DNA from: Thioalkalivibrio sp. ALJ7
Lineage (GTDB): Bacteria; Pseudomonadota; Gammaproteobacteria; Ectothiorhodospirales; Ectothiorhodospiraceae
Direction of reading: 5' to 3'
Assembly (NCBI RefSeq): GCF_000376865.1
Contig: NZ_AQXQ01000012.1
Coordinates: 806,001 to 870,000 of the forward strand
DNA: 64,000 nt
The position numbers were made by a program, and so were the translations under genes. Of this stretch, positions 14,428-16,448 are shown piece by piece (within the stretch, counting starts at the first letter, position 1; each line of letters starts with the position of its first letter). The notes under the pieces were generated by a model that saw nothing but the letters and a program-made list of their open reading frames with translations, was not told the DNA's origin and did not search any database.

Positions 14428-15353
14428 GACCCGGTCGGCGCGTACTCGACGCTGTGCCCGCATGGGTGGAGGCCCACCGGGATGCCGCCCGACGCAGCTT
14501 CCAACGGCGGCTCCAGGCCCCCGTGCTGAGTCTGATCAGCATCGCTGTGTTGGGCTTCATCCTGACGCTCCCAGCCTTCCTCTGGGTGTTGCTGGATAAC
14601 GCCCGCGCCCTGTCCGCACACATCGACCATGACCCGCGCATCGCCCTGTATCTGGACGATGTCGCACCGGAAACGGCCGCTGAACTGGAACGCCACCTGG
14701 AGACCGACGCGCGGGTCGAACGTTGGACCTGGATCGACGCCGACGAAGCCCTGGAACGCTATCGCGAGGGCCTGTCCGACCCCGGCCTGCTGGACTGGCT
14801 GGATACGAACCCTTTGCCCGATGTGATCGATGTCGTGCCGGCCTCTGCCGACCCGGCAACGGTGACGGCATTGCGCGAGGAACTCGAAGCACTCGCGCCC
14901 AACGCAACCGTGATCAGCGACGACGAGTGGGTGCGCCAGCTGAACAGCCTGCACCAGGTGGGCCTGCGTATCCTGACCGTGGTGGGCGCCCTGCTTGGGC
15001 TGGGGGCCGTGCTGATCCTGGCCCTCGCGACCGCGTCGGAGTTGCGCGAACGCCGGGAGGAGATTGCCATCTCGCGCATCAGCGGGGCGACCCACCGATT
15101 CCTCCGTCGTCCATCGCTGTACGGCGGCCTGCTCACCGGCTTCGGGGGCGGCGTCTTTGCGGGCATCCTGCTGCTGGTCGGCATTGCCCTAAGTCGTGCG
15201 CCCCTGGAACAGGCTGCGGCGGCGTTCGCACTCGAGTTCGAACTTGGCTTGCCCGGAGCAAGCCATTTGTTGTCGCTCATGCTGGCCGGCCTTTTCCTCG
15301 GCTGGCTGGGTGCCCGTCTGGGAAGCGGCCACGCCCTGCGCGACGCACCGTAG
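14424..15353 (+). CDS. ftsX: cell division protein FtsX
   Basis: 309 residues with the FtsX plan: one N-terminal membrane segment (LISIAVLGFILTLPAFLWVLL), a large extracytoplasmic loop (about residues 60-170, with LYLDDVAPETAAELE and WIDADEAL), then three C-terminal membrane segments. RISGATHRFLRRPSLYGGLL, just after the second segment, is the family's conserved cytoplasmic stretch. It is the membrane partner of FtsE, whose gene it overlaps by 4 bases. Confidence 0.95.
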   Translation: MRPGRRVLDAVPAWVEAHRDAARRSFQRRLQAPVLSLISIAVLGFILTLPAFLWVLLDNARALSAHIDHDPRIALYLDDVAPETAAELERHLETDARVERWTWIDADEALERYREGLSDPGLLDWLDTNPLPDVIDVVPASADPATVTALREELEALAPNATVISDDEWVRQLNSLHQVGLRILTVVGALLGLGAVLILALATASELRERREEIAISRISGATHRFLRRPSLYGGLLTGFGGGVFAGILLLVGIALSRAPLEQAAAAFALEFELGLPGASHLLSLMLAGLFLGWLGARLGSGHALRDAP

Positions 15354-15395
15354 GGACAATTCGACCCGGCCCAACGGCCGGAACTTTTACAGGGT

Positions 15396-15422
15396 TTAGC
15401 ACTCCTACGCACAGACTGCTAA
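15396..15422 (+). promoter_or_regulatory. CIRCE element (HrcA operator) upstream of rpoH
   Basis: The sequence reads TTAGCACTC, nine bases, then GACTGCTAA. The CIRCE consensus is TTAGCACTC-N9-GAGTGCTAA, so the left arm matches 9 of 9 and the right arm 8 of 9 with exactly the canonical spacer. It ends 33 bases before the rpoH ATG at 15456. CIRCE is the binding site of the heat-shock repressor HrcA, usually in front of groES-groEL or hrcA-grpE-dnaK. The match is directly visible; HrcA control of rpoH is inference. Confidence 0.85.
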
Positions 15423-15455
15423 TCTAGAGCCATGAATCGGGAGGAAACACCACGC

Positions 15456-16322
<867 letters not shown>

Positions 16323-16370
16323 CGTCTCCGCGCAGCGCTAAAGCAGAGGGCATTAGAGCCCGAACGAAAA

Positions 16371-16399
16371 AGGCCCCGGCAAATGCCGGGGCCTTTTTG
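16371..16399. terminator. bidirectional terminator between rpoH and the cco operon end
   Basis: A perfect 10-bp stem (AGGCCCCGGC, loop AAAT, GCCGGGGCCT) is followed by TTTTTG on the plus strand and by TTTTTCG on the minus strand. It can end both rpoH and the minus-strand cco transcript. Confidence 0.9.
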
Positions 16400-16448
16400 T
16401 TGCCGGACATCGGGCCTACTCACCCGACCCGGCCGGAATCCTCCTGGC

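Follow-up and report, generated by a model that had tools for sequence, protein, structure and literature searches.

The window analysed here, a 64,000-nucleotide stretch of the Thioalkalivibrio sp. ALJ7 assembly (2.71 Mb, 99.93% complete), carries the genes ftsY, ftsE, ftsX and rpoH in that order. ftsY, ftsE and rpoH scored above their profile cut-offs (for rpoH, TIGR02392 with 382.6 bits against 323.1); FtsX is the best family for the ftsX frame, yet the match stays below its cut-off (215 versus 255 bits). Between the end of the ftsX frame (15353) and rpoH, which encodes sigma-32, lies a CIRCE element, together with the following features:

15380..15386, forward strand: GGAACTT, sigma-E type -35 element, read from the sequence and conserved at a fixed distance from CIRCE
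15396..15422, forward strand: CIRCE element (candidate HrcA operator), 17/18 consensus positions with N9 spacer, kept in relatives and tracking hrcA
15396..15401, forward strand: TTAGCA, candidate sigma-70 -35 element (4/6), separated by a putative 18-base spacer from its -10
15403..15407, forward strand: TCCTA, sigma-E type -10 element, N16 from the -35, from the sequence and the class alignment
15417..15425, forward strand: TGCTAATCT, candidate extended -10 of a sigma-70 promoter over the CIRCE right arm, weak here
15440..15444, forward strand: GGAGG, likely ribosome-binding site of rpoH, read from the sequence
15456..16322, forward strand: rpoH, sigma-32, 288 aa, from profile match and open reading frame

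The rpoH start at 15456, after GGAGG, is likelier than one at the in-frame ATG at 15432. The latter would make RpoH 8 residues longer (296 aa) and has the same position as the predicted sigma-70 start. Past rpoH, a long GC hairpin between A and T runs (16367-16398) is, on inspection by eye, plainly a terminator; it is missing from the output of the terminator scan, perhaps since its T run is base-paired in the stem.

Relative to the consensus used, TTAGCACTC-N9-GAGTGCTAA, the element is composed of the left arm TTAGCACTC (9/9), the spacer CTACGCACA of exactly 9 bases and the right arm GACTGCTAA (8/9, with GAC for GAG), and the rpoH ATG follows 33 bases past its end. The initial annotation had described a near-perfect CIRCE element on these grounds, and both direct reading and shuffled controls bear it out. 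In 100 dinucleotide shuffles of the window the pattern gave 0 matches, and the 64-kb window itself contains no second place matching CIRCE at ≤3 mismatches. A chance match was ruled out as the source of the element, as none of the 100 shuffles matched and resampled leaders reached ≥15/18 in 1 of 4440.

The HrcA reading of this element had been proposed together with a search of the complete genome for hrcA and further CIRCE sites, and both are there. One intact hrcA, of 352 aa, was identified in the assembly (PF01628, E 2.0e-67; TIGR00331, 327 bits) and is adjoined by grpE. A scan of the whole assembly for CIRCE at ≤3 mismatches returned three places, in the leaders of groES, rpoH and hrcA, and a reversed control pattern returned 0 in the same scan. 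The candidate operator before groES stands 62 bases upstream with one mismatch, while the one before hrcA, about 6 bases from the ATG (L003 1501-1527), has three mismatches and is the poorest of the three. Across the genus, the operator outside rpoH (the groES one in the window's genome, L001 1501-1527) has one arm recurrently changed, to TTAGCACCC or TTAGCAGCC; the rpoH operator, unlike it, varies in the right arm (GAC for GAG).

In its 9-N9-9 palindrome and its spacing the element resembles the CIRCE operators of groESL and hrcA-grpE-dnaK, with candidate groES and hrcA sites in the same genome. It differs from them in its target, the sigma-32 gene, and in its position over a predicted sigma-E promoter. 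CIRCE normally controls groESL or hrcA-grpE-dnaK, as the initial annotation had remarked; a precedent at rpoH is found in Geobacter sulfurreducens, where CIRCE was predicted directly before rpoH, at position -51 (PMC545781, Table 8). G. sulfurreducens is of another lineage, Table 8 of PMC545781 lists rpoH for this species only, and in the accessible parts of that report no sigma-E promoter is mentioned with the site.

Conservation of the element was examined at three levels. Among relatives, an RpoH search over 58 genomes, the window's own among them, yielded 56 leaders to read; in G028 (58% complete) and G054 the matches are no better than those of other sigma factors. CIRCE with 16-18 of 18 positions stands directly before rpoH in all 29 leaders of the genus (own included) and all 7 from the family's other genera; for the rest of the class the figure in this 56-leader set is 14/20. 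Lack of an hrcA gene and loss of the element from close relatives had been named as the two grounds for giving up the HrcA reading; neither was observed, hrcA being intact and the element being kept in 36/36.

The second level was a class sample of 158 genomes, drawn evenly and ≥90% complete, of which 147 have rpoH at E ≤ 1e-60 (11 dropped); 148 leaders were read, one genome having two copies. hrcA was detected in 115 of the 158 genomes, the matches in G097 and G151 being partial. CIRCE at ≥15/18 was found in 104 class leaders, and all 18 positions are kept in 53/148. Over the 147 genomes the element precedes rpoH in 99/108 with hrcA versus 5/39 without (Fisher p 8e-20; 8e-20 to 4e-8 over thresholds 14 to 18), p-values that are too small, as the sampled genomes are related and not independent. 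Nine genomes have hrcA but no element at rpoH (G049, G062, G072, G100, G134, G141, G168, G171, and G191), and in the leader of G072 only the right CIRCE half is left, as read by eye. The element is present without a detected hrcA in five (G052, G103, G119, G148, and G155); hrcA and the element occur together in G185, a member of the genus of G052. Within one family, G048 has hrcA as well as the element and G184 has neither, a contrast in the expected direction. The rpoH leader of hrcA-bearing G134 (L099) has a palindrome resembling CIRCE whose spacer is 8 bases long. G068 has two rpoH copies (L115 and L133), with CIRCE at 17/18 in one leader and 10/18 in the other.

Beyond the class, 60 other genomes of the phylum were searched, 56 of them with an rpoH match at E ≤ 1e-50, and CIRCE with ≤1 mismatch was located 44 to 79 bases before rpoH in 6/60 (coordinates compared by eye). 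These six (G201, G209, G212, G215, G231, and G247) all belong to family f156. An element peculiar to one genome or family was rejected as a description, as it is common class-wide, and its class-wide conservation is tied to hrcA. As read from these leaders, the arrangement is common in sampled hrcA-bearing gamma- and betaproteobacteria and absent from E. coli. Since the presence of CIRCE before rpoH tracks hrcA, repression of rpoH by HrcA is probably an old, common trait and not a local oddity.

The site might still be one that HrcA binds to little effect, weak or a relic beside that of groESL, with rpoH governed chiefly at the levels of translation and protein stability. Sigma-32 control in E. 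coli is largely post-transcriptional, which would fit such a reading, as would the one mismatch here and the right arm that is imperfect in 20/29 genomes of the genus and perfect in 9/29. In nitrogen-starved Xylella fastidiosa, hrcA rose four-fold, groESL fell and rpoH rose two-fold (PMC3224663; PMC11764788); a rise of rpoH alongside induced hrcA is unexpected under simple HrcA repression and also speaks for a weak site, Xylella being compared by expression alone and from the portions of these reports at hand. However, the left arm is perfect in 29/29 genomes of the genus, the element is conserved class-wide, and the rpoH site equals the groES site (17/18 each) and exceeds the hrcA site (15/18). 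The RNA from 15414 to 15560 does not fold unusually (z 1.03), so that no thermometer of its own is apparent. Thermometer-like RNA was rejected on this fold value and on the lack of an Rfam match in 15300-15700. We regard a site of little consequence as unlikely.

When the 104 CIRCE-bearing class leaders were aligned on the element, three further conserved stretches appeared: GGAACTT, spanning -16 to -10 relative to CIRCE, an A in the spacer, and AT past the right arm. The first two together give GGAACTT-N16-TCTAA, the form of a sigma-E promoter. In the window the predicted promoter is GGAACTT-N16-TCCTA (15380-15407), which agrees with a GGAACTT -35, a spacing of about N16 and a TCnnA -10. Its TCCTA starts with the two final bases of CIRCE's left arm and continues over three spacer bases, and on this reading of the sequence CIRCE overlaps the predicted -10. 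The initial annotation, correct as to the CIRCE site, had missed the promoter beneath the operator. Among the 104 leaders GGAAC is found at -16 in 37, at -17 in 8 and at -15 in 3, against a background of 0.1 per offset, and in the genus it lies exactly at -16 from CIRCE in 28/29 genomes. The A at spacer position 3 is present in 80/104, the commonest -10 sequences being TCTAA (26) and TCTCA (18).

This signature follows rpoE. GAAC at -14 to -16 was found in 68 of the 90 operator-bearing leaders with rpoE over the cut-off versus 0 of the 14 others (p 5e-8), one of the 14, from G149, being counted as without rpoE for a match below the cut-off; it is absent in 22 of the 90. The A completing the sigma-E -10 accompanies GAAC in 63/68 leaders versus 17/36 without GAAC (p 4e-7). 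At 20 CIRCE sites not before rpoH, picked among the matches listed (18 from the window's family and 2 from G055), GAAC occurs at that distance in 0/20 in either orientation. A search of named species genomes for GGAAC-N11-perfect CIRCE, with no condition on rpoH, gave at least 118 loci, and 111 of those are then followed by rpoH as called by tblastn at E < 1e-5; among the matches listed, the rpoH-linked loci include Deefgea, Azoarcus, Thiobacillus, Ferrovum, Alcanivorax, Silanimonas, Granulosicoccus, and Thioalkalivibrio. Seven listed loci have no rpoH call. In two of them the sequence ends 88 and 156 bases past the site, with a frame start that resembles RpoH by eye; of the other five, also judged by eye, one precedes a GroES-like frame, one an HrcA-like frame, and three nothing recognised. 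rpoE is present in the window's genome (TIGR02939, 310.5 bits). Two observations count against sigma-E: the 22 leaders without GAAC, and the rpoE leaders, used to check the local sigma-E consensus. Only 6/31 of the latter have the motif, each time with N16 (the null gave a mean of 0.8 and a maximum of 4), and it was not found in the rpoE leader of the window's own genome. At rpoH itself the sigma-E promoter signature is tied to rpoE, and we infer transcription of rpoH by sigma-E.

The same composite stretch can be compared with the rpoH leader of E. coli MG1655, where GAACTT-N16-TCTGA, with the N16 spacing of the window, is what we take to be rpoH P3. The E. coli RpoE -35 is GGAACTT, and rpoH P3 is the promoter through which RpoE was found (PMC8103513); P3 is described as a sigma-E/AlgU promoter of rpoH in E. 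coli and Pseudomonas aeruginosa (PMC8103513, PMC13104619), as stated in the sections of these papers at hand. No CIRCE was found in the MG1655 rpoH leader (best 10/18), and the HrcA profile search gave no match in E. coli, one of 14 control genomes. A sigma-E promoter, predicted in the window, precedes rpoH in both E. coli and the window. Sigma-E control of rpoH has been shown experimentally outside the enterics in Bordetella bronchiseptica, where SigE transcribes the rpoH (fam) promoter in vitro (PMC3490749); B. bronchiseptica is compared here by this published promoter transcription alone, and the accessible text of the report does not mention HrcA or CIRCE.

With respect to prior work on such sites, the likeliest earlier report would be the 2003 study of Permina and Gelfand on beta-, gamma- and epsilonproteobacteria. 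Apart from PMC545781, no report of CIRCE before rpoH was found in the literature searched, in so far as its text was accessible; Permina and Gelfand 2003 and RegPrecise may contain such sites. The same literature, with these two sources outside the search, yielded no account of a CIRCE and sigma-E composite at rpoH. Given the Geobacter precedent, we thus see here a known kind of operator on a little-recognised target, in a composite architecture that we did not find described.

A sigma-70 promoter may also be read at rpoH, from TTAGCA over 18 bases to TGCTAATCT, and this is the weaker reading next to the sigma-E one. The hexamer of TGCTAATCT matches TGnTATAAT in 3/6, and a consensus scan of 15340-16420 found no sigma-70 promoter at threshold. 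The AT just past the right arm gives TGCTAAAAT in 37 and TGCTAATAT in 17 class leaders (54/104), which are nearer the consensus. With two putative promoters so placed, the palindrome itself could be a by-product of a sigma-E promoter and an extended -10 sigma-70 promoter that overlap, with no repressor site at all. In its favour, -10 elements coincide both with the tail of the left arm and with the right arm. Among the 44 leaders that lack CIRCE, a TGCTA-type -10 persists in 8 (null mean 0.6) and a promoter of loosely defined sigma-E type in 10 (null mean 1.1). The promoters would, however, need neither the outer TTAGCAC nor GAGTG, all 18 positions of the palindrome persist in those 53 leaders, and the whole palindrome goes with hrcA, so that we hold a mere by-product to be highly improbable. 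The element as promoter sequence only was rejected, the palindrome tracking hrcA over the class sample.

In Bacillus, transcripts that include CIRCE can fold its repeats into a stem, and the inverted repeat could accordingly act as a hairpin in the leader RNA of rpoH. One pair of such a stem is lost to the right-arm mismatch, no Rfam match or unusual downstream fold was found in the leader as given above, and both promoters have their predicted starts within or beyond the repeat, which their transcripts would therefore not contain in full. A role as hairpin is extremely improbable.

We consider it likely that the element functions as an HrcA operator and that rpoH is repressed through it; binding, repression, transcription by sigma-E, the transcription starts and the physiology are what we infer from comparative sequence data. 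Control of sigma-32 by HrcA, as first suggested for this locus, is supported at that level by the intact hrcA, the 36/36 leaders of the family and the tracking of hrcA over 147 genomes. Speaking against it are the nine hrcA-bearing genomes that lack the element at rpoH, the five that have it with no hrcA detected, the right arm, mismatched here and often imperfect in the genus, and the Xylella expression changes. In unstressed cells, active HrcA folded by GroEL would sit on 15396-15422 and cover the -10 region and predicted start (near 15412-15414) of the sigma-E promoter, as well as the weaker sigma-70 promoter, and with the promoter covered little sigma-32 mRNA would, we propose, be made. 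Heat or unfolded protein would titrate GroEL, whereupon HrcA would unfold and depart and rpoH would be transcribed, most strongly when envelope stress frees sigma-E too. Sigma-32 would then raise the chaperones, with groESL and hrcA-grpE freed simultaneously, and recovery of GroEL would restore HrcA and close the loop. In Caulobacter the folding of HrcA is maintained by GroEL, according to the portion of the report available (PMC8119881); with GroEL keeping HrcA folded in this manner, a shortage of GroEL would open rpoH, groESL and hrcA-grpE together.

At the level of the class, we lean slightly towards a history in which ancestral Gammaproteobacteria, with the betaproteobacteria counted among them, had a two-signal gate at the rpoH promoter, opened by sigma-E from the envelope and shut by HrcA reporting on GroEL within one 45-base stretch, and in which E. 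coli rpoH P3 is a remnant after loss of hrcA and the operator. Teaching accounts of the bacterial heat-shock response usually present one of two systems, sigma-32 from E. coli or HrcA/CIRCE from Bacillus. In 104/147 sampled rpoH-bearing genomes of the class, a candidate HrcA operator lies on the sigma-32 gene itself, and in 68 of these 104 a sigma-E -35 motif is located just upstream. If functional, the path from HrcA to sigma-32 would link the two heat-shock regulators. If the two-signal gate is true, one site would connect the heat-shock regulon with envelope stress and chaperonin load, and, with P3 as its remnant, the textbook sigma-32 circuit of E. coli would be a derived form without HrcA.
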